DNA of 64,000 nt from Nitrospirota bacterium (GTDB taxonomy: Bacteria > JACPQY01), in NCBI GenBank assembly GCA_016190245.1, contig JACPQY010000011.1, positions 62,001 through 126,000 on the forward strand, in the 5' to 3' direction. Shown here piece after piece: positions 13,840 to 25,503 of this stretch. Within the stretch, counting starts at the first letter, position 1. Every line of letters begins with the position of its first letter. A program made the position numbers and the translations under genes. The notes under the pieces were generated by a model. The model did not search any database, had not been told where the DNA came from, and saw only the letters and a list, made by a program, of their open reading frames with translations.

Positions 13840-15813
13840 TCAATCCCGCGCTCGACGCAGCGTGGGGGGTGGAAGGAAGATCTCACCGCAGGGTGGAGTC
13901 TCCCCTCCGTACAGGGTCCACACTTGATCGTCCTGGGTCGCCCCCAGGTCGGGGCCCATCTGGAGGAAGAGCAGCCATGGGCATTCGAGGTAGTAGACCT
14001 CGAGTCCACCGCTTGCGTCGTCAACGATTCTGCCGGCCACATGGCCGACGATCTCCCATTCCGGCGGCGCAGGGAAAAGCGCGGGCGACATCGCAAACAG
14101 TGTCGGGGTCAGGGAAACCCCCTCGTGGGTGCCGAATCCAATCCCATCGTAGAGCAGATGGACATCATCTTGGGTGTCAAAAACCGTCCCTCGATTCCTG
14201 AAAAGTTCCAGTGGCGATCCGTGGAGGAGGGCATCTTCGTTCGAGAGAAAGATAGGGTCCCGGGTGTTCATCAGTTCCTTGTCCAGAACCAGGCGATCGT
14301 CCGATTTGTCTGCCGGATCCTTGCCGTAGTCCAGAAGATAGGTTCCCAAGTTGGAGTTGATCCAGATCCGATTCTGAGGATCGGCCGCGATGCCGAAGAG
14401 CTGATCCGTCCAAAGGCCTTCATCCTGGGTGAAGTTCGCAACCCAACGCACCTCGTTCGACGCCGGATCGAGTTGGAAAACACTCACGCCATCCACCCCG
14501 CGGTCCAGGTTGGGCTCCAGGTCGTACGTGGACGCCCACAAATAGCCCTTGCCGTCCACGGCAAGACCGGAGACGTTCTCATCAATGAGACCTTCCACAG
14601 GGACAGGATCTGTAGAGAGGTCCAGATCGAATGCGAGGAGTCCCGCCCCGACGCCGGAGACCACGACTTTCTTGCCTTTCCATTCGACGATCGGGAACCC
14701 GTAGAACGCCTCTCCGACCCGGCTCAGGCTTTCCGACTTGATCCGCTGCGTGTAGTCGAACTTCCGGAGGACCGTGCCTTCAGCGTCGATGACGGTCAGG
14801 AGTGGGCCCGCATAGTCCAATGAAACGTAGTTCTGGCCGAACCAGATCCGCCCCCTGCTGTCTCGAAACGGCTTGCCGGTTTGGTTCATGAGAACCTCAG
14901 AATCGTCGGGTTTCTCCCGAAGGACGAGAATCCGCTTCGCCGCGTCGTCGTCCGTCGTTCTGAGGTCCGCGCCCAGGTCGAGTCTGAGGAGCCCCTGAGT
15001 GTCGGTTCCGATCCAGAGGACGGATTCGGATTCGCGCTCGATCCACCGGGCATCGAGGTAGGGGGAGAAATAGAGGCGGAGCGGATCCAGCGGTCCTTTC
15101 TTGTCTCGCGCCGACATTTCCACCATGTGCATCTCGACAGAGAGCTTGCTCGTCTCGATCTCGAGCCTCACCGGAAGGACGGACTGGAATTCATCGTCGT
15201 CTCGGGAGGCGTTCTCCGGGGCCACCTGGGGCGGACCGAACACGAGATTGTACGGCCCGGTCGCAATAGTCGAGGTGTACGCAGAATCGAGGAACGAGGT
15301 TCGATCCACGGTGTAGGTGGTCCCGTCCAGGGTGAACGTGAGATCGAGAATCGCATCGGAACCCACCTTGTATTGGTTCTCGAACTTCACCGTGTCCAGG
15401 AGCGGCAGTGGAAGATAGCCGGCGTGCACAAGGTCCACTTCCTTCCAGGGATCCCGCAGATCCTCCCTCCAAGGGGTCCTCAGGTTGTAGGCCAGGTATC
15501 GGTCCAGGATCCATTCATTTCCGGCGATCGCGCAGACCACATCGTCGGCAAGCGAAGACGTGTCGGGGCAGATGGATCGCGGGACGAGGGGCGCGGCCGC
15601 CGGGAGGTCCAGGAGCGCGTCGGCCGAGTGGATCTCTACCGTCGCGGCCTCGATTTCGAGATCGGGTGCGGGTCCGTCACCGCAACCGGAGACGGCCAAG
15701 GAAGCCGCGAGGGCCAGGGCGCGGGTCAATCCGGCCACGGACGGCCTCGGCCGCACTCCCCGGGCCGCGTCATACTCGCCGCCCCTCTCGTAGACCGACC
15801 GTGTTTTGTCCAT
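13840..15813 (-). CDS. beta-propeller-like lipoprotein of unknown function
   Basis: A 657-residue predicted lipoprotein. After a basic N-terminus and hydrophobic stretch, the lipobox VSGC places the lipidated cysteine at residue 44. The rest has blade-like repeats with a W-[IFA] signature: WIGTDTQGLLRLDLG, RIWFGQNYVSLDYAG, YLWASTYDLE and RIWINSNLGTYLLDYG. These resemble the 'two-component regulator propeller' repeats used as sensor or scaffold domains. A five-bladed or larger propeller is plausible. It is second in a probable leftward operon, 34 bp after another lipoprotein. Function and ligand unknown. Confidence 0.7.
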   Translation of the reverse strand: MDKTRSVYERGGEYDAARGVRPRPSVAGLTRALALAASLAVSGCGDGPAPDLEIEAATVEIHSADALLDLPAAAPLVPRSICPDTSSLADDVVCAIAGNEWILDRYLAYNLRTPWREDLRDPWKEVDLVHAGYLPLPLLDTVKFENQYKVGSDAILDLTFTLDGTTYTVDRTSFLDSAYTSTIATGPYNLVFGPPQVAPENASRDDDEFQSVLPVRLEIETSKLSVEMHMVEMSARDKKGPLDPLRLYFSPYLDARWIERESESVLWIGTDTQGLLRLDLGADLRTTDDDAAKRILVLREKPDDSEVLMNQTGKPFRDSRGRIWFGQNYVSLDYAGPLLTVIDAEGTVLRKFDYTQRIKSESLSRVGEAFYGFPIVEWKGKKVVVSGVGAGLLAFDLDLSTDPVPVEGLIDENVSGLAVDGKGYLWASTYDLEPNLDRGVDGVSVFQLDPASNEVRWVANFTQDEGLWTDQLFGIAADPQNRIWINSNLGTYLLDYGKDPADKSDDRLVLDKELMNTRDPIFLSNEDALLHGSPLELFRNRGTVFDTQDDVHLLYDGIGFGTHEGVSLTPTLFAMSPALFPAPPEWEIVGHVAGRIVDDASGGLEVYYLECPWLLFLQMGPDLGATQDDQVWTLYGGETPPCGEIFLPPPTLRRARD

Positions 15814-15847
15814 CGCCCTTTCCCCTCTGGCGGCTGCGCTCGGGACC

Positions 15848-17560
15848 CTACGGCCTGGGCAGCGAGGGAACCAGCGTCCCGACCAGCTCGTTCAGGTCCA
15901 CCGGATTTCCGCTCCCCTGAACGGCGATGAGCTTCTGCCGGATCCCGTCCAGCCCCGTACTCGGCGCGACCACCGAGCAGTACAGTTCCAGCGCGGCGGA
16001 GAGGTCTTCGCGCTCGGAGTCATAGAGGCTCTCGACGAAGCCGAGGAAACGATCCTCCTTCGCGCCGCTCAGCGTCCCGGCCATGCCGACCATGTAACCG
16101 GTCGGCACGAAGCACTCGTCGTGCCCCGACCATCTCTCGAATACGAGACCGAAGTGCAGGAGGGAAGGCTGAGTGTCCGGCTCCGCCGGTTTGCCCGCGC
16201 CCATGAAGCCGATCACGAACCGGTCGCGACCACTGTCGCAGGAACCGTCGCCCGAGGCGGCGCACCGGGCCTGCCGAGCGGTGGGCGCCACGAATCCGAT
16301 GTACGCCCCCACCATGGCGCTGCCGTAAACTTCCGGGTCCACCACCCAGTAGCCTCCCGTAAGCCCCGGTGAGAGGTCCGTCTCTTCGAGGTTGGCCCAC
16401 ACCCCACCCCACAGGCCCACATCGTGACTGTCGCCACTGGCCACGGGTGCCGTCAATGCATAGGCGATCCCCGTGTCGAGGCCGTCCTCTCTGAGATGGA
16501 AGCCGATCAGCGAGTATTGATCCACATCCTGACCCGCCAGGGTGGCGCCGTGGAGATACGGCTTCGTCCCGAGCAGGCTGTGGCCCACGTTCGCAAGCTC
16601 GATCCTCTCGACCGCCGTGCCGGCGAAGCGCATTTCGACGCCGATGCCCAAGAGAGTCGCTTTGCATCCGAGGACGACCGCGAAACCGTCGCGCTTGGCG
16701 AGAACCGACGTCGTCCAGGAGATCTTCGCGCCGTCGCCCGACAGGCGCAGATCGTCCGGGGTGCCGCCCGAGTCACGCTCGGCCGGGAGAGGGATGAACT
16801 GCTCGGCCCGGAAGGCGCAGGTTCGCTTGGGATCGCCCGTGATCGCCAACTCACCTGAATACTCCCGCGCCGTCTCCGGGAGCTCCGCCTCTTTCTGAGG
16901 CGGACCCCAATTCGCGAGGAAAAGATACGACGTGGTCAGCGATGGAAACTTCACACCGGCGACCGGGGGAATGGGCAACCTCACCTCTTTCGCGAACGTC
17001 AGCACGGACTCGCGTTCGGCATCCAACACCGAATGGACCGCCGCCGTCGCTTCCTGGAGGGTCGGATTCTCGGCCAACAGGGCGGCCAGGACGTCGGCCG
17101 GAGTGAGGGGCGTTGAGTCCTGAGATCCACTCGCCTCTTCGGTTGTTTCCGAGGTCTCGGATCCCGTCGTGATCTCATCAAGGCCCGGCTTCAGATCGGC
17201 TGGTACGTCGGGGCTCTCCACCACGGAGACGGAATCGGCCTGCACGTCCGCCGCTTCCGGTTCCCCGGTTGCGGGGTTCGATGAGTCCGCCTCTGCCTGA
17301 GCCGCGGGGTCGTCCACGGACGGTGCAGGCGCGACCTCGGCGCTGACCGTCTGAATTTGTACCGCCACGCCACCGGCCTCAGATCCTCGACCACCGATCA
17401 GACCGAGATTGAAAATTTCGTCCGCCGGTTCAGCCACGGCGGCCACCTGACCGGGCACGACCTCGGAAGTCGGGACCGATCCATCATCCTTCGAGCCTTG
17501 TGTGCCGCAAGCTGCGGCCAGCCAGATACCGAACATCGAGAAAGCCACTCTGGTTCTCAT
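15848..17560 (-). CDS. large lipoprotein of unknown function
   Basis: A 570-residue lipoprotein. The track start at 17578 is wrong: its first six codons are the Shine-Dalgarno AAAGGGGGAA, and ATG 17560 follows at normal spacing. The signal peptide MRTRVAFSMFGIWLAAAC has the lipobox with Cys18. Residues of about 20-155 are a low-complexity Glu/Ser/Pro/Ala linker. The C-terminal ~350 residues are folded-looking (LGIGVEMRFAG, GYMVGMAGTLSG), with cysteines in a CAASGDGSCDSGRD segment. No domain recognised. It sits upstream of the propeller lipoprotein, so the two may act together at the cell surface. Confidence 0.7.
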   Translation of the reverse strand: MRTRVAFSMFGIWLAAACGTQGSKDDGSVPTSEVVPGQVAAVAEPADEIFNLGLIGGRGSEAGGVAVQIQTVSAEVAPAPSVDDPAAQAEADSSNPATGEPEAADVQADSVSVVESPDVPADLKPGLDEITTGSETSETTEEASGSQDSTPLTPADVLAALLAENPTLQEATAAVHSVLDAERESVLTFAKEVRLPIPPVAGVKFPSLTTSYLFLANWGPPQKEAELPETAREYSGELAITGDPKRTCAFRAEQFIPLPAERDSGGTPDDLRLSGDGAKISWTTSVLAKRDGFAVVLGCKATLLGIGVEMRFAGTAVERIELANVGHSLLGTKPYLHGATLAGQDVDQYSLIGFHLREDGLDTGIAYALTAPVASGDSHDVGLWGGVWANLEETDLSPGLTGGYWVVDPEVYGSAMVGAYIGFVAPTARQARCAASGDGSCDSGRDRFVIGFMGAGKPAEPDTQPSLLHFGLVFERWSGHDECFVPTGYMVGMAGTLSGAKEDRFLGFVESLYDSEREDLSAALELYCSVVAPSTGLDGIRQKLIAVQGSGNPVDLNELVGTLVPSLPRP

Positions 17561-17706
17561 TGCAGTTCCCCCTTTCATCCACGCTCTCTAAGCGCAGGAA
17601 GCGTGCCAAGACGGCGCGTTCCGGCAGGACCACACAACGGCTTGGAACACATGAATGTCTCAGACGGGGCTCCCGTCAAGCGGCGAGCGGGATTCCTTCG
17701 CCGCCC

Positions 17707-17790: not shown

Positions 17791-18615
17791 TCACGATATC
17801 GTGACGCTGCTCTTCTTTCCGAAAGGTGGATTGGTCAGGACCATCTCGTAGTGGCGACCGCCTTGGTCCGCGAGGGCATCCCGGACATCAATGGGCACCT
17901 TGTCCGCACCATTGCCTCCGATGCCGTGGAGGAGGAGATTCATGCAGCATAGACGGGCCACTCCGTCCACAAGCTCGATTCCGTAGAGCGTTCCGCTCTT
18001 GAGGCGCTTTTTCTGCTCGCGGTCGAGCGTGTGGTGTTGGGCGATGTAGTCGTGAGCCGCGAGAAGAAACCCGCCGGTTCCGCATGCGGGGTCGCAGAGG
18101 GTCATTCCGGGCTCGGGCCGCATCACGTCCACGAGGGCGGCGATGAGCGGACGCGGCGTGAAGTACTGGCCGGCGCCGCCCTTCACGTCCTCCGCGTTTT
18201 TCTGGAGAAGCCCCTCGTAAGCGTCACCTTTTACGTCGGCGGACAGGGACGACCAATTCTCCTTGTCGATCAGGTCCACGATGAGTCGCCTGAGTTTTGC
18301 GGGGTCCTGAATCTTGTTCTGGGCTTTCCGGAACACGAGTCCAAGCATGCCCTTCTCTTTTCCGAGCGATTCCAAGACGCGCCGGTAATGCGTTTCGAGT
18401 TCTTCGCCATCGCGGGCCGACAAACTCGGCCAGTCGGAGCCTTTCGGGATGGGAGAGGGCTTGTTGATCGGCGGCCGCGTCTGCTCATCCGCCATCTTGA
18501 GGAAGAGAAGGAACGTCAGTTGCTCGACGTAGTCGCCGTACGACAGCCCGTCATCCCGCAAGATGTTGCAGTAGTTCCAGAGCTTCTGGACGAGTTGTTG
18601 GGAATGGTCAGCCAT
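17791..18615 (-). pseudogene. hsdM: type I restriction-modification methylase HsdM, 3'-truncated
   Basis: The frame encodes only 274 residues of a family normally near 480-520. The N-terminal HsdM helical domain (QKLWNYCNILRDDGLSYGDY) and the start of the N6-adenine methylase domain are present: SAM motif I DPACGTGGF at 175-183 and catalytic motif IV TNPPFGKKSS at 261-270. Translation then stops within four codons (VTIS-stop), where intact relatives continue for over 200 residues. The stop lies inside a perfect 14-bp palindrome (TCACGATATCGTGA, 17791-17804). The C-terminal MTase fold and HsdS contact region are absent from the window, so methylation is probably lost. It is the last gene of the hsd operon. 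Confidence 0.85.
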
Positions 18616-18662
18616 GCTCCGCGATAAGTCCAGAATAAGTCAAGTATGAGTCAAGCACCCGA

Positions 18663-18881
18663 TCATTCGGCCCGAAGTTCCTTGAGATGCCGCGAAGACT
18701 CCCGGGCCTGCTCGCCGGTGTAGTACCGCGTCCGGCAATGGGAGCAGTACATGAACCGATCCTTGTGGAGCCGCCAGGTTTTCCCTTCGACGACCACCTT
18801 GCGGCAACCTATGGATTCCTTCGCCTCCCCTTTCCCGCAAACGCTGCACTTTTCGACCTTCACGACTTTCGGTCCTCTCAT
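18663..18881 (-). CDS. 72-aa zinc-ribbon protein (MqsA/YgiT N-domain-like)
   Basis: A small basic protein with two CxxC knuckles: CSVCGKG near residue 12 and CSHCRTRYY near residue 46, followed by a helix (GEQARESSRHLKEL). The layout resembles the zinc-binding N-terminal domain of MqsA/YgiT-type antitoxins, but no helix-turn-helix follows and no MqsR-like toxin is adjacent. A CGGAAGA ribosome site precedes the ATG. It lies between the HEPN-like gene and the truncated hsdM in the same direction. Treat as a small zinc-binding protein of unknown role. Confidence 0.6.
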   Translation of the reverse strand: MRGPKVVKVEKCSVCGKGEAKESIGCRKVVVEGKTWRLHKDRFMYCSHCRTRYYTGEQARESSRHLKELRAE

Positions 18882-18949
18882 TCTTCCGATTCTGTCGCTG
18901 ACTTTCGCATTCCGTGGAGTGGTGCCGGCGCGGCCTCCCCGCGGACCGG

Positions 18950-19342
18950 CTATTCCAAGCTGGCTGCAATCAGATGTCGAAAGATGTTGTCGCAGTACGT
19001 GTTCGCTGCCGCTGCCGCCAATCCAAGTTGGCCGTGCTTGAAGACCTCGTCGTAGTCCGCGGAACGGCGGTATTCCAACAGCTTTCGGAGGTCGCCTCCC
19101 AATTTCTGCCGATAGATCTGTCTGGATCTCGCGAATTGATCCCGGACAAAGGCGTGGACCTCTCTGTCGGGCAGAGCTACCCCACCCATGACCAAGAGGG
19201 ATCGCGAAAGGTGATAAGCTGCATAGTACGCCCTACTGATTGCGGATCTCCAGAGCGCCTCAACTTCACCGGGATCCTTCCCCACCCGCTGATTGACCAA
19301 CCAGCCTGACAATTTCCGGTACTCATCCCAGGCAAAACTCAT
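18950..19342 (-). CDS. HEPN/UPF0332-like protein
   Basis: A 130-residue all-helical protein. Start ATG 19342 is preferred over the track start because it overlaps the preceding stop (ATGA) and begins the conserved domain. It carries the UPF0332/HEPN signatures SRAYYAAYHLSRSLL (36-50) and LLEYRRSADYDE (88-99). HEPN proteins are often RNases or RNA-binding partners in toxin-antitoxin and defence loci. A canonical catalytic RxxxxH is not evident; R37-x6-H44 sits in the AYYA helix. No MNT nucleotidyltransferase is next to it, so its partner may be one of the two unknown genes upstream. Family confident, activity unknown. Confidence 0.7.
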   Translation of the reverse strand: MSFAWDEYRKLSGWLVNQRVGKDPGEVEALWRSAISRAYYAAYHLSRSLLVMGGVALPDREVHAFVRDQFARSRQIYRQKLGGDLRKLLEYRRSADYDEVFKHGQLGLAAAAANTYCDNIFRHLIAASLE

Positions 19343-19896
19343 GTGAACGCCGGCAGAATGACGATCAGCCCGGAGGATGCCATCGGTTGTTTGAGCCACC
19401 ATTTGAAGTCGAACCGGTCCAGCCCTTCGATTGCGTCTTCGGGCGCCATTCCAGTTTCGACCTGTACGACCAGGTACTCCAATCCTTCTTCCTCATCCTT
19501 CGCCAGGCTCAATTGGAACCCGGTTACTTCCGGAACAAAACTACGGACCTGCTCGGGAACCTGCGCGAGCACGTCTTTCAGATCACCGTGTTCACGCAGG
19601 AAGGTCATCACGAGTCCATGGTCCAGAATGCGGTACCACTTCAGCAGGCTGGGAGAATCAACACTGGCCGCCAGGGAGGGCTGGCTGACTGCAATCGTCC
19701 ATTTGCTCCAATCGATGGAGTCCGACGTGAGTCTCAGGGTGTTGCAGACGGGCCGGGCCTGCGACTCCACAATCACTTTGGGGATACCCATTGAACCGGG
19801 ACCCAGCGAAGTGGACCCCCGCTGAGGTGGAGACCAAGGTGCCATGACGGAGGAATACTTGATGGCTGGCTCGCGGCCAGGGAGTCCGAGGTTCAT
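19339..19896 (-). CDS. uncharacterised 185-aa protein coupled to HEPN and TIGR04255 genes
   Basis: No recognised family. It is soluble and mixed alpha/beta: SIDWSKWTIAVSQPSL, then a helical stretch RSFVPEVTGFQLSLAKDEEEGLEYLVVQVE, and a C-terminal DFKWWLKQ. Its ATG directly abuts the TAG of the TIGR04255 gene and its TGA overlaps the HEPN ATG, so the three are an obligately co-translated set. The acidic alternating segment EYLVVQVETG looks like a small ligand- or protein-binding domain. The tight coupling implies a complex or a toxin-antitoxin-like balance with its neighbours. Confidence 0.6.
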   Translation of the reverse strand: MNLGLPGREPAIKYSSVMAPWSPPQRGSTSLGPGSMGIPKVIVESQARPVCNTLRLTSDSIDWSKWTIAVSQPSLAASVDSPSLLKWYRILDHGLVMTFLREHGDLKDVLAQVPEQVRSFVPEVTGFQLSLAKDEEEGLEYLVVQVETGMAPEDAIEGLDRFDFKWWLKQPMASSGLIVILPAFT

Positions 19897-20640
19897 CTAC
19901 GCCGCCTTCTGCCGGCCAAATACGTCTCGGAGCCGGTCGGTTACGCATGATTCGAATGTGTCCTCGACCTGCCGATGCGCGTTCTCCACCCACGACAGCA
20001 TGGCTGACGATTCGAAGGCGGGCCTCTCGAACGAAAAGAAGTCGAGGTCGAATATCATTCCCATGTGTCCTGCTTTTGCCGCCTTCTGGCTGAGCAACTG
20101 TAAACGGAGCCGATTCCTTCCCTCATCGCATAAAAGCTCAAATCCGGCCATGAACGCAGCCACCGGGGGATGTCCCCCATAGTCAAAGTAAGGGAAGAAC
20201 CGGAGATAGTCGCCAATCCGCGCATTCTCAGGGATCTCGAAATGATTGATATAGCGAAGGGTCTGCCCTTGGATTCCCTTCGGCTGGGCGATGGTCATGT
20301 ACTCGCGCAGTGCATGCTGAATCATCGGTAAGTAGTTGACCCAACGCTCGTAGGGGTTGAGGCGGCTGACGGCCAATACGTGCGGCCCCAGAAGGATGAT
20401 GCTCTTCGCGTTAGAAGTGGAGAACCGAATGACGGGAGTTGTTCTGACCTCTTGCTCGAGGATTTCGGATTCAGACTTTATCTGCGAATCGATCCGGGTT
20501 AGATCCTGCCTTTGAGAGAACTCGGACTGGATGGCTTGATAGTACATGCCCGGAACCGTGCTGTCCCACGGGCCTGATGGGTCAAACCGAAACTCGCAGA
20601 CGGCCTCATGAAGAGGAGGGGTTACGTATTTTCCCGGCAT
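19897..20640 (-). CDS. TIGR04255-like family protein
   Basis: A 247-residue protein with the hallmarks of the sporadically distributed TIGR04255 family: PPLHEAVCEFRFDPSGPWDSTVPG at the N-terminus, NPYERWVNYLPMIQHALREY in the middle and LRYINHFEIPE, then a C-terminal DLDFFSFERP and WVENAHRQVEDTFESCVT. Function of the family is unknown; members turn up in accessory and defence-rich regions, often beside other small unknown genes. The stop is immediately followed by the ATG of the next gene. Family assignment rests on motif memory, not a search. Confidence 0.65.
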   Translation of the reverse strand: MPGKYVTPPLHEAVCEFRFDPSGPWDSTVPGMYYQAIQSEFSQRQDLTRIDSQIKSESEILEQEVRTTPVIRFSTSNAKSIILLGPHVLAVSRLNPYERWVNYLPMIQHALREYMTIAQPKGIQGQTLRYINHFEIPENARIGDYLRFFPYFDYGGHPPVAAFMAGFELLCDEGRNRLRLQLLSQKAAKAGHMGMIFDLDFFSFERPAFESSAMLSWVENAHRQVEDTFESCVTDRLRDVFGRQKAA

Positions 20641-20708
20641 GCTCGCCCAATTCTACACCCTGAAGACGTAGAAGTACCAGTTCGAAACGAGAGCGGATTT
20701 CAAGATTC

Positions 20709-21371
20709 TCACTCGTATGCCACGAAACGCGGTGCGAGCATCTTCGCAAGCGCGGGCGTGCCGGCCTCCGGGATGAGTGGCGCAAATCCTTGAACACACG
20801 TGGGATTCCACGTGAAGAAAATCCCCGCCAATCGGTCGATCGGCTCGGATCTCAGAACGTTGATGGCCGCCTGGATTTCGGCGTCTTCAACGTTGTGGGC
20901 GCTTTCAGACCACAGGTATACGAAGAACATGCCCCTCGTACCATCGTTCTTCGATGCCTTCTTGCGAATGGCTTCAATCAACTGCGCCTGCACTTCCTTC
21001 GGATTGCCGTACTCGGGGAGCACCCCGGTTCCCCGAGCTTCGCGGAACCGCCTTTCATCATTGGCGTCTTCGTCGCGCCACCGAAATTTCTTCACCTCGA
21101 TCGCCATCTCTTCCGTTGAGAGGCGGACCATCAGATCGGGGTGTTCGCCGAATTCCAAGCGTGAAACACTTGGTAGGGAGATGAACTGAGCAGCCGCACG
21201 AATCTCCGTCGCGATATCGGCCGCGGTGTCAGGCGATTTCGCGTTTTCACGGATTTGCTCCAGCTTGCGGCCGAGGGAATCCTGATCAACGGCGCTGCTT
21301 TCGCGGAGTGCTTGCAGGCATGCCCTGAATTGTTCATCTGCGGGCAGCTCACCCGTCGTCGGCGCATTCAT
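20709..21371 (-). CDS. PD-(D/E)xK nuclease-like protein coupled to hsdS
   Basis: A 220-residue protein. ATG 21371 overlaps the hsdS stop (ATGA), so the track's 76-codon upstream extension is rejected. Residues 71-96 read RLEFGEHPDLMVRL...AIEVKKF, matching the PD-(D/E)xK pattern with D79, E92 and K94 and an upstream Glu73; hydrophobic strands flank it as expected. An N-terminal helical region (about 1-60) precedes, and a second alpha/beta part (GMFFVYLWSES, LAGIFFTWNP) follows. It could be an extra nuclease of the hsd complex or part of the downstream accessory set. No family name assigned. Confidence 0.6.
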   Translation of the reverse strand: MNAPTTGELPADEQFRACLQALRESSAVDQDSLGRKLEQIRENAKSPDTAADIATEIRAAAQFISLPSVSRLEFGEHPDLMVRLSTEEMAIEVKKFRWRDEDANDERRFREARGTGVLPEYGNPKEVQAQLIEAIRKKASKNDGTRGMFFVYLWSESAHNVEDAEIQAAINVLRSEPIDRLAGIFFTWNPTCVQGFAPLIPEAGTPALAKMLAPRFVAYE

Positions 21372-22726
21372 AGCCCGCCCGAGAACGCCGCGTGCAAGAT
21401 GGATTGGCGAAGGCGGGAGGCGCGGGAGAGGTTGGTGGCGACGACTTTTTCCAATTCCTTGACCGCGCTCAACCGGCGCTCGACTTCGGCGAAGATGCGG
21501 AGTTGCGCGGCAAGCGGCGGGATGGGTATGGGAAGGCTCTTCAGGGTCTCGATATTGATTCCGGTATACGCGATGCCCTTGGTACGTGCCAGCAACCATG
21601 CCTGGGAACGAGGAGAAGCGATGAAAATGCTCGTGGCCCGCGCAATTCCTGAGTCTACTAAGGCAAGCATTGCCACTTCACGAGAAATGTTGAAACCCGA
21701 ACACTCGCGAGGAATCACGACCACCCCGCCTAGCGTTCCGCGGACGGTTACAAGAACCTCATCGCCTTGTAAGAAAGTGCGTTTGAATCTGGCGGCGATG
21801 CGAGGAGACACGCGCTTCACATTCCCCAGGCCAAGTTGTAGGCTGCGGACGTCGCTTGATCTCAATACGGGAATGCCATTCTCGACCGAATCTCCAAGAT
21901 TGATTACACCGTACGTTATCGAACGAACTGGATCGGTCAGTTGTTCGGCTGTTGCCCACGCCCAGCCATCAGGGAGTCGGGGGAGGTTGGAGGTGTCCGG
22001 GGGCTTGGGGTCGACGTATTTCTTATTGCGACCATTTTTCTTCTGATCTTTTTCCCAGGCTTCGCGGCGGGCGGAGAGGATGCGTGCAAGGAGTTGGGCG
22101 CCGGTTTCAAAGGGGCGACCTTCCTTGCGGGCGAGTTCGGCTTCGGTGGGAACGAGTTTCCCTTCGCACGCGGCTTTGAGAACGGCGGCGCGGTAGCGTT
22201 CCAGATTGGCCTGCACGCGCTTGAGCGCGGCCACCCCCGCCTCCAGCCGGGTGAACTGTTTCTCGATCTCGGCAACGATCCGCTGCTGTTCCCTTTCCGG
22301 CGGAACCAGCACGGGAATCTGCTTCATCGGTCCCTGCGGTAGCTTCAAGCGTGTGGTTCCACTGACATAGGGGCGATAGTCGAGATTGTTCAGTTGGTAG
22401 AGGAGAAAGGAATTCAGCAGTCCCGGCTTGGCCCGGAGCACATGCGCGTGATTACTTACCCACGACTTGCCGCGAATCAGATAGGCTTTCGGTTTCGTTG
22501 GATCGAGGAACGGAGCGCCATCCTCGCCAAGAAGGACAAGTTCTTCATCGAATATAGGTGTGTCGATCCAGCCCACTTGGCCCGTCGCCCCGTAGTACGG
22601 AATCTGCCCCTGGCGTTTTTCCCGTTCCGTACTGTTGACGGGAATTCGATGTGAGTCGAGAATGTCCACTGCCTCTCTCAGTGGAACGGTGGCATGCCCA
22701 GCCTCAGTCGTGATGCCAGTGCTCAC
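21368..22726 (-). CDS. hsdS: type I restriction-modification specificity subunit HsdS
   Basis: A 452-residue HsdS with two target-recognition domains separated by a conserved coiled-coil spacer. The first TRD ends QIPVLVPPEREQQRIVAEIEKQFTRLEAGVAALKRV; the second TRD starts LPDGWAWATAEQLTD and ends SLPIPIPPLAAQLRIFAEVERRLSAVKELEKV. This duplicated architecture gives a bipartite DNA target. The reading frame is intact. Its ATG overlaps the hsdR stop by 4 bp and its stop overlaps the PD-ExK-like gene's ATG, so translation is coupled along the operon. In an active enzyme it would bind two HsdM, but the local hsdM is truncated. Confidence 0.92.
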   Translation of the reverse strand: MSTGITTEAGHATVPLREAVDILDSHRIPVNSTEREKRQGQIPYYGATGQVGWIDTPIFDEELVLLGEDGAPFLDPTKPKAYLIRGKSWVSNHAHVLRAKPGLLNSFLLYQLNNLDYRPYVSGTTRLKLPQGPMKQIPVLVPPEREQQRIVAEIEKQFTRLEAGVAALKRVQANLERYRAAVLKAACEGKLVPTEAELARKEGRPFETGAQLLARILSARREAWEKDQKKNGRNKKYVDPKPPDTSNLPRLPDGWAWATAEQLTDPVRSITYGVINLGDSVENGIPVLRSSDVRSLQLGLGNVKRVSPRIAARFKRTFLQGDEVLVTVRGTLGGVVVIPRECSGFNISREVAMLALVDSGIARATSIFIASPRSQAWLLARTKGIAYTGINIETLKSLPIPIPPLAAQLRIFAEVERRLSAVKELEKVVATNLSRASRLRQSILHAAFSGGL

Positions 22727-25503
22727 GCCGCCAAGGCCTCGTTGAGTTCATCCAGCAGCTTCGGAAAAGATTCGCCGAAAAGCCGGTGCGCCTTGCCGAG
22801 TCCGCCGCGCTGACTGAAGGGGGAATAATCGAAATCCTGCGGCTCAATGCTCAGACTCGTGGCGATGTGGTCGCGGATGAGTTCGAGCCACGCCAGTTGC
22901 TCGTCGCTGAAAGAAGTCCCGTTGGAGATCTTGGCCAAAACCCATGTCTTGAACCGAGCGTGGACGCTCTCGGCGAACGGTTCAAGAACCGGCTGGTGGG
23001 CCAGAGAGAAGTGAACCAGCGATACGAGGTCTGCAAATCGGCCCGCTTGGGATCGTCCGCGCACTTTCGTCGGCTCGACGGCGGCGAAGGCATCCCAAAG
23101 ACGGTCCTCGGTCCACGCCGCATGGTTTTCCCGAAGCTTCCGTTCCAGATCCTTCAACATGGCCTCCGTCAGCCGGTGGCGATAGGGACGAGAATAAAGA
23201 ATCTGAAGCGCTTCGATCTCGGACTTGTGCTTCTCGATGTAATCGCGAAATGACACTGTGGTCTTCCGAGCGTTAAGATCAGACTGGGTCGTGCCTCCGG
23301 CAAAGAGAACGCGGTCCCTTGAAATCACGTCGATGACTTGGTCCGCCGTCCGATGCACTTTGATCAAGAACTGCCGTAGATCCGGATTCCCCGCGAGTGG
23401 CGCGGCAGCCGCCTGCGCAAGGCCATCGGCAGCGGCTTTCAAGGACGTGGCGGTCGGTTCCTTGTAGCCCGGCGGACCACCACCTGCCGCCGCCAGGATC
23501 TTGTCCGGATTGGCGGCGTCAAGCAGGCTACCCGCAATTTCCGAAAGCGTCCTGCCTTTCGCCGTCGCCTGCACTTCCGAAACGAGGTGATCGTCGAGTC
23601 GCTTTTCCAATCGGATCAACCGGTTGGCCAGACTTTCCAACGAATCGGCATCCCGTGCCCCCAGCGCCACGGCGTCGAGAAGTTTCTCGAATGGAACATT
23701 GGGCTTCTTCTCAAGCGGACGGGAATCGGTCTTGTCCCGTTCGCAGACCCCGACGGCATCCACGATCACGAACCGCGATTTTCTCTTAATCCCGGGATTG
23801 ACCTGCTCCATCTCCGTTTCCGAGATCACGCGCACGCCCCGACCCTTCATCTGTTCGAAGAAACTGCGCGACTTGACTGAGCGCATGAAGAAGACGATTT
23901 CCAACGGCTTGATGTCCGTCCCCGTCGCGATCATATCGACGGTGACGGCAATGCGCGGGTCGTAGCTGTTCCGGAACGTCTTGATGAGAGTTTTCGGGTC
24001 CACGCCGGTGGTGAGATACGTGATCTTCTGGCAGAAGTCGTTCCCCTTGTCGAAGACTTCGCGACAGATGCGGACGATATCCTCCGCGTGGGAATCGTCC
24101 TTCGCGTAGATCAACGTCTTGGGAACGTTCTCGCGTCCCGGAAAGATCTCAGTAAACAACTTATCCCGAAAGGTCTCGATCACGGTGCGAATCTGGTCCT
24201 CGGCAACGACTTCCCGGTCGAGCTGATTGGCCTCGTAGGTCAAGTCCTCATCGAGCTGTTCCCACCGTTTCTTGCGCGTGAGGCGGTCGCGTTTGTCGAC
24301 GTAGAATCCGGCATCCACCTTCGAGCCGCTCTCGGTAATCTGCGTCCGGATTTTGTATACATCGTAGGGCACGTTGACGCCGTCCGTTACCGCCTGCTCA
24401 TGGCCGTATTCCATCACGAGATTTTGCTTGAAGAAACCGAAGGTCTGTTTCGAGGGCGTGGCCGTGAGGCCGACGAGGGTGGCGTCGAAATATTCCAGGA
24501 CCTGGCGCCAAAGGTGGTAGATCGAGCGATGGCACTCGTCCGTGACGATGAAATCGAACGTCTCGATGGGGAATTTCGGATTGTACTCCACGGGGACGGG
24601 TTCCTTGAAGCCCGATTCCGCCGCTTCGATGCCGAGGTCGTCCAAATCGGGCGGCGGCTGCGTTTCGCCCTTCAACATGGAGTAGACGCGCTGAATGGTT
24701 CCGATCACGACGCGGGCGGAGGTGTCGAGCGTGTTCGAGGTCAGATGCTGAATGATATGTTCGTTCGGAAACTTGAGGTTGTTGACCGGGGATTCGAACT
24801 GTTGGAATTCTTTCAGGGTTTGATCGCCGAGGTTTCCCCGGTCCACCAGGAAGAGGATTCGGCGGGCGCCGGCGTATTTGACGAGACGGTAAACGAAATT
24901 GACCGCCGTGAACGTTTTCCCCGCGCCGGTGGCCATCTGGATGAGCGCCCGGGGGCGGTTCGCGGCGAAGGATCTTTCCAGATTTTCGATGGCCGTGATC
25001 TGCGCGGGCCACAGGGCCTTTTCGACCAGTGGGGGCATTTCGCGGAGCCGTTGGTGGAGTTGCTTCTCGGCTTTCACCCAGTCGAGGAGCGTTTCGGGAC
25101 GGTGAAACGCGAACACGAGGCGGCTGCGGGGCTCTGGATCGAGTCCGTTGGTGAAAAACGTTTCCATGCCGGTGCTCTCATAGGCGAATGGAAGTGGATC
25201 CCGCCACGCCTGCATGCCGGAAGGTACTCCCCTGATGTACTTCCCGGACTGTTCTTCGACGCCGCTGAGGGTGTGACCCTCCTTCTTGGCTTCAACCGTT
25301 CCGATGGCCTTGCCGTCCACGAACAAAGTGTAGTCCGGCTCGCCGGTTATCATGGAAAGATTGCAGAGGGCCACGCCACTTGAAGCGGCGAGATTCGCGC
25401 TCGACTTTTCCTGGACGGCCCACCCGCAACGCTCCAAGATCTCATCGATGTTCCCCCGAGCTTTGTCTTCGGGTGTTCTTATGCGTGGGCCTGGGGGGAT
25501 CAT
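22723..25503 (-). CDS. hsdR: type I restriction enzyme HsdR (translocase/endonuclease)
   Basis: A 926-residue motor subunit starting at ATG 25503 (MIPPGPRIRTPEDKARGNID). The track start at 25620 adds an unlikely leader. The N-terminal endonuclease has PDYTLFVDGKAIGTVEAKK (D58, E71-K73). The SF2 helicase has Walker A ATGAGKT (191-197), DECH box (322-325), motif III LTATP and motif VI-like QMKGRGVR. A C-terminal helical HsdS-binding part follows. The frame is intact, but cleavage needs the M2S core, which is broken here. It is the first gene of the leftward operon, starting about 130 bp from the tRNA. Confidence 0.93.
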   Translation of the reverse strand: MIPPGPRIRTPEDKARGNIDEILERCGWAVQEKSSANLAASSGVALCNLSMITGEPDYTLFVDGKAIGTVEAKKEGHTLSGVEEQSGKYIRGVPSGMQAWRDPLPFAYESTGMETFFTNGLDPEPRSRLVFAFHRPETLLDWVKAEKQLHQRLREMPPLVEKALWPAQITAIENLERSFAANRPRALIQMATGAGKTFTAVNFVYRLVKYAGARRILFLVDRGNLGDQTLKEFQQFESPVNNLKFPNEHIIQHLTSNTLDTSARVVIGTIQRVYSMLKGETQPPPDLDDLGIEAAESGFKEPVPVEYNPKFPIETFDFIVTDECHRSIYHLWRQVLEYFDATLVGLTATPSKQTFGFFKQNLVMEYGHEQAVTDGVNVPYDVYKIRTQITESGSKVDAGFYVDKRDRLTRKKRWEQLDEDLTYEANQLDREVVAEDQIRTVIETFRDKLFTEIFPGRENVPKTLIYAKDDSHAEDIVRICREVFDKGNDFCQKITYLTTGVDPKTLIKTFRNSYDPRIAVTVDMIATGTDIKPLEIVFFMRSVKSRSFFEQMKGRGVRVISETEMEQVNPGIKRKSRFVIVDAVGVCERDKTDSRPLEKKPNVPFEKLLDAVALGARDADSLESLANRLIRLEKRLDDHLVSEVQATAKGRTLSEIAGSLLDAANPDKILAAAGGGPPGYKEPTATSLKAAADGLAQAAAAPLAGNPDLRQFLIKVHRTADQVIDVISRDRVLFAGGTTQSDLNARKTTVSFRDYIEKHKSEIEALQILYSRPYRHRLTEAMLKDLERKLRENHAAWTEDRLWDAFAAVEPTKVRGRSQAGRFADLVSLVHFSLAHQPVLEPFAESVHARFKTWVLAKISNGTSFSDEQLAWLELIRDHIATSLSIEPQDFDYSPFSQRGGLGKAHRLFGESFPKLLDELNEALAA

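Follow-up and report, generated by a model that had tools for sequence, protein, structure and literature searches.

The described systems closest to the locus studied here all involve HEPN proteins: the MNT-HEPN pair (HepT-MntA, type VII; PADLOC PDC-M05), the type IX retron retron-Kva2, and PrrC-PrrI. In retron-Kva2, described in a preprint, the active site consists of H64 and R122 of both monomers together with Y40-42; phage defence is lost in the mutants H64A, R122A and Y40-42A, and tRNA is depleted once the system is activated (PMC13405049). A survey of HEPN proteins tied at least 16 HEPN clades to restriction-modification (R-M) operons and took PrrC-PrrI as its model case (PMC3710099). 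According to the same survey, HEPN-T proteins in which D replaces H retain a different conserved H, which may contribute to activity, some HEPN domains are thought to be non-catalytic, and some RNase LS HEPN proteins are fused to a TBP-like domain (PMC3710099).

We analyzed a type I restriction operon that carries a HEPN gene among several others, located at positions 17791-25503 of a window of 64,000 nucleotides from the draft genome (3.29 Mb, 85% complete) of a Nitrospirota bacterium. All eight genes were found where the original prediction had placed them, in the same order and with the same junctions. In the direction of transcription, they are:

22723..25503, minus strand: hsdR, type I restriction subunit of the host operon (EcoEI_R_C 2e-37, ResIII 1e-35)
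21368..22726, minus strand: hsdS, type I specificity subunit of the host operon (Methylase_S 1e-19)
20709..21371, minus strand: PD-(D/E)xK-like gene, 220 aa, overlapping hsdS by 4 bp
19897..20640, minus strand: TIGR04255 protein, 247 aa (NCBIfam TIGR04255 5e-35, 121.5 bits)
19339..19896, minus strand: orf185, whose family lies upstream of HEPN elsewhere; studied with a structure model
18950..19342, minus strand: HEPN protein, 130 aa, assigned with a family profile against PDB HEPN chains
18663..18881, minus strand: zinc-ribbon gene of MqsA type, 72 aa, without a helix-turn-helix (HTH) (TIGR03830 7e-5)
17791..18615, minus strand: truncated hsdM, 274 aa, N-terminal half only (the N6_Mtase match ends early)

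The overlap of hsdR with hsdS covers 22723-22726, that of hsdS with the PD-(D/E)xK-like gene 21368-21371, and that of orf185 with the HEPN gene 19339-19342, i.e., 4 bp each, while TIGR04255 and orf185 abut at 19897/19896 with no gap. The scores of hsdR, hsdS and TIGR04255 exceed the family cut-offs by a wide margin. The island has a GC content of 55-60%, against 64% for the whole window. Directly downstream of the hsdM break (13840-17578) there are two large lipoprotein-like genes, the nearer of which resembles the remainder of the window in its GC content (65%).

The broken hsdM had already been noticed from the sequence, and our searches agree. The match to N6_Mtase stops at position 138 of 311 of the profile, the fragment aligns with residues 1-273 of an HsdM of 438 aa at 60% identity before it reaches a stop codon, and the 3' half was found nowhere in the assembly of this 85% complete draft. 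The locus thus has full-length hsdR and hsdS and a truncated hsdM, not the intact R/S/M set of a functional type I R-M system. Without HsdM, the R and S subunits of type I enzymes should neither modify nor restrict. With the 3' half of hsdM missing, the type I operon has probably lost its function here, and the truncation may be an assembly join rather than a real break. The gene order had been contrasted with a usual M-S-R arrangement, which fails for this subfamily of HsdR: three plasmid operons whose HsdR is 44-46% identical have R first and M last (R-S-DUF262-M, R-S-GIY-YIG-M and R-x-x-S-x-x-M). Hence, it is nothing unusual for operons of the subfamily to which the hsdR of the window belongs to carry additional genes between hsdS and hsdM. 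In the R-S-x-M operons of loci L174, L175 and L176, the hsdS-hsdM gap is filled by GIY-YIG, DUF262 or hypothetical genes, and it is possible that this gap is a hotspot for accessory genes in such operons.

To study the conservation of the cassette, we used 80 loci obtained by a scan with HEPN only, taking one genome per species. They were drawn from Chloroflexota, Cyanobacteriota, Planctomycetota, Bacillota, Acidobacteriota, archaeal drafts and other groups. A gene of the orf185 family lies directly upstream of HEPN in 76 of these loci, and TIGR04255 lies directly upstream of the orf185-family gene in 28 of the 80. Of 90 junctions between orf185 and HEPN, 46 are the 4-bp overlap and 86 lie within 12 bp. 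The arrangement at the 76 loci is the one of type II-like toxin-antitoxin pairs, with two small, co-directional, overlapping genes and the partner upstream. At the 80 loci, the orf185 profile matched nothing else except tandem copies (L042, L044, L049, L066). Because the partner profiles were started from three to five sequences and then iterated on the HEPN loci themselves, we also ran the orf185 profile in reverse, over 386 genomes. The family was found in 19 of them, with 19 matches, of which 15 adjoin a HEPN gene and 12 have a TIGR04255 sequence. The TIGR04255 family is present in 49 of the 386 genomes; when its best 30 loci were taken as anchors, both partners followed it in 11, the window included, and the remaining ones had no orf185 and HEPN after TIGR04255. 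We are thus virtually certain that TIGR04255, orf185 and HEPN (20640-18950, minus strand, in the window) form a conserved module. The module is free-standing and independent of the hsd genes, which come within about 10 kb of it at no more than 3 of the 80 loci and never adjoin it.

The original prediction proposed an undescribed module of five genes acting together. What stands of it is a conserved, toxin-like set of three genes, recurring in the predicted order and with HEPN as the likely effector; the five-gene scope and a dependence on type I restriction find no support. None of the 80 HEPN loci yielded a relative of the PD-(D/E)xK-like gene or of the zinc-ribbon gene, and we rejected the five-gene unit on this ground. 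The PD-(D/E)xK-like gene (20709-21371) matched no family in family-profile searches. Its relatives stand alone in two other genomes; D79 and E92 are aligned in both of these distant relatives, and K94 is replaced by R in one (L122). This gene is probably an R-M accessory sitting in the hsdS-hsdM slot, outside the HEPN module. The zinc-ribbon gene resembles the N-terminal ribbon of MqsA (TIGR03830 E=7e-5, MqsA_antitoxin 0.008, both below cut-off) and is probably a bystander.

Few sequenced plasmids or phages carry the family. A plasmid search with TIGR04255 found plasmid pTB1 of Thermus brockianus, where TIGR04255 is followed by an orf185-family ORF and a 130-aa HEPN ORF; argonaute and cas6 lie no more than about 6 kb from the triplet. 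The HEPN gene of this plasmid (L015:7303-7695) is missing from its gene table. In Gloeothece plasmids, an upstream orf185-family ORF overlaps the HEPN gene and TIGR04255 is absent. In the scan of viral contigs with HEPN only, a prophage locus carrying the whole triplet was found, which is identical to one in Herpetosiphon geysericola. Searches of plasmids and genome contigs with single orf185 sequences found nothing, and neither did the TIGR04255 pair alignment against viral contigs. When genes flanking the module were compared with controls using PADLOC (124 genes each), they matched 199 models against 37, the excess among the models listed consisting mostly of overlapping PD-T4-6 models on the same few proteins, so that the two totals are no guide to defence islands. 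A Calditrichaeota draft genome carries two three-gene units in tandem (L066:7075-8668 and L066:8780-10306). One sample (S146) gave near-identical units in two bins, one assigned to Bacteroidota and the other to Heimdallarchaeota (L047 and L061), which is more likely to reflect a binning error than a transfer.

The HEPN assignment is weak for the window sequence alone, which scores below the cut-off of the Pfam HEPN family (PF05168, E=0.037, 14.6 bits, cut-off 22), but firm for its family, as judged from profile comparisons. A relative in L017 passes the same cut-off (4e-6, 27.4 bits), and the family profile matches two HEPN chains in the PDB (3e-10 and 4e-9), the HEPN of retron-Kva2 (36ht, 2e-4) and AF0298 (0.004). 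PADLOC HEPN_IX is matched by 33 of 66 members. The canonical Rx4-6H motif occurs in none of 94 members. Nevertheless, R32, S36, R37, Y39, Y40, H63, R92, D96 and Y97 are all kept in 91 of them, the window copy included; R92 and Y97 are kept in all 94, and D96 and H63 in 99%. The family thus has the HEPN-T feature of PF05168, i.e., a D in place of the H together with another conserved H (D96 and H63). Residues H63, R92, Y39 and Y40 correspond to H64, R122 and Y40-42 of retron-Kva2 by sequence position and motif, rather than by superposed structures. From these residues, HEPN is the likely effector of the module and a predicted RNase toxin.

The model of orf185 has a disordered part (residues 1-80) followed by a confidently modelled small alpha/beta domain (residues 81-185). 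This domain matched no Pfam or PADLOC family, and the model gave no Foldseek match in the PDB below 0.001. Against a viral library, Foldseek of orf185 and TIGR04255 gave two matches, an unnamed protein (3e-7) and a Tupanvirus orfan (8e-4). In the homologue of L071, an N-terminal Xre HTH replaces the disordered part. Such HTH domains are typical of self-regulating antitoxins. Judging from its sequence and place, orf185 is predicted to be an antitoxin-like neutraliser.

The first gene of the module is the least constant. The protein matches NCBIfam TIGR04255 with 121.5 bits (cut-off 30) over positions 2-251 of 252 of the profile, and its model is confident (mean pLDDT 90.7), with no PDB match below 0.001 in Foldseek. 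The order of strands and helices resembles that of TBP, which tops the Foldseek list; with E around 1e-3 and a TM score around 0.25, this resemblance is a lead only. The TBP-like fusion of RNase LS proteins mentioned above may be suggestive in this respect. Since only 11 of the best 30 TIGR04255 loci have orf185 and HEPN, the family is broader than the module, to which one subtype belongs (motif YxxPPIxEAxCEF). Most of the HEPN loci lack TIGR04255, and about 17 changes in its state occur along the HEPN tree, so that the gene may be dispensable. It is predicted to be an optional first gene with the role of a regulator or sensor; that it senses a trigger is a tentative proposal. At two loci (L009:1480-2714 and L016:3770-5076), TIGR04255 overlaps by 4 bp quite different partners of 161-182 aa, one of them weakly HEAT-like. 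As the partners differ there, TIGR04255 may be a regulator shared by several modules. In L178:1252-1821, a TIGR04255 N-terminus is in frame with an orf185-family C-terminus, without HEPN, which is either a deletion remnant or a real fusion.

We favor, with a probability of around 0.7, the reading of the module as a HEPN toxin with orf185 as its neutraliser, inserted as cargo in a dead type I operon. A three-gene module of the toxin-antitoxin or abortive-infection type would have entered the hsdS-hsdM gap. The toxin would be a HEPN dimer with an RNase site built from H63, R92 and Y39/Y40, its target probably being tRNA. Encoded before HEPN and translationally coupled to it, orf185 would bind and silence the toxin. 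The third subunit, TIGR04255, would be optional, serving either to reinforce the silencing or to detect a trigger and set HEPN free. The absence of TIGR04255 at most HEPN loci, the orf185 fold with no significant PDB match and the small number of plasmids and phages with the family speak against this reading. A defence against phage is suggested by the copy in a prophage, by the one near argonaute on a plasmid and by the analogy with the retron, and we put its chances at slightly below even; a role in abortive infection is plausible. The most specific version, a three-component antiphage system in which a TBP-like TIGR04255 sensor would release a HEPN tRNase from its orf185 neutraliser upon infection, is less likely than not.

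The cassette lies on one strand between hsdS and hsdM, and the clades tied to R-M operons in the HEPN survey, with PrrC-PrrI as their model, offer a precedent for a cassette that backs up the type I system as a second line: the Hsd complex would restrain HEPN and free it when restriction is blocked. The original prediction leaned this way when it suggested that the cassette uses or replaces the damaged complex. Given how rarely hsd genes accompany the 80 HEPN loci, and never as neighbors, we rejected a module dependent on R-M; the module also has its own conserved partner gene, and the hsdM of the window is truncated. This makes restraint by the Hsd complex very unlikely. The same truncation could indicate a decaying island, once functional, where the window copy is now as inert as hsdM. 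This copy sits on a long branch (1.69) of the HEPN tree, which is too poorly resolved to place it. Yet, none of its three reading frames is interrupted, they overlap in the usual way, and the nine invariant HEPN residues are all kept, which makes decay quite unlikely. Another reading starts from the absence of Rx4-6H in all 94 members and from the HEPN domains thought to be non-catalytic (PMC3710099): the protein would act by binding, to RNA or to a nucleotide, within a regulatory complex made by the three genes instead of a toxin system. The near invariance of H63, R92, Y39, Y40, D96 and Y97 fits a catalytic site, and the type IX retron HEPN, which also lacks Rx4-6H, still needs H64 and R122 for defence (PMC13405049). 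We thus regard a non-catalytic role as unlikely.

If the toxin-neutraliser reading is true, TIGR04255 and the orf185 family gain a testable role, as partner subunits of an RNA-cutting toxin, and the non-canonical HEPN site of the type IX retron extends to a non-retron module found across many phyla. The module also gives annotation pipelines a rule by which genes now called hypothetical, or not called, become annotatable as its parts. We found no literature naming TIGR04255, its InterPro name or the whole set in a search that left subscription journals mostly uncovered, and a description elsewhere is possible. The set is not described in Pfam, in NCBIfam (beyond TIGR04255 itself) or in the PADLOC of 2023, from which TIGR04255 is absent.

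How does the module compare with the known systems? Like PrrC-PrrI, it places a HEPN gene within an R-M operon of type I; in contrast, its HEPN has no ABC-ATPase fusion (no ATPase match was found in the 130-aa protein) and its association with hsd is not conserved. Within the TIGR04255 family, the window protein is a full-length match over the cut-off, whereas the module subtype has a fixed pair of partners and other members have other neighbors. As in MNT-HEPN, a small HEPN toxin gene lies directly downstream of its partner and overlaps it, and PDC-M05B models match a few HEPN members. Unlike in MNT-HEPN, the partner is not a nucleotidyltransferase (neither partner matches the MNT family, and orf185 has no match to such a fold), Rx4-6H occurs in 0 of 94 members, and a third gene is present in about one third of the loci. 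The source genome also carries an apparent classical MNT-HEPN pair (G000 contig C38; L154:4004-4755), in contrast to the HEPN unit of the window. The type IX retron (PMC13405049) shares with the module a HEPN with a non-canonical H/R/YY site lacking Rx4-6H and, as we infer for the module, an effector held by partner subunits. It differs in having a reverse transcriptase and a winged-helix gene, of which profiles found none among the genes of 17791-25503, and we rejected a retron for lack of a reverse transcriptase among the module genes; orf185 and TIGR04255 are the partners instead. HEPN toxins paired with an upstream partner have been described before; the module appears to add new partner families and a third gene.
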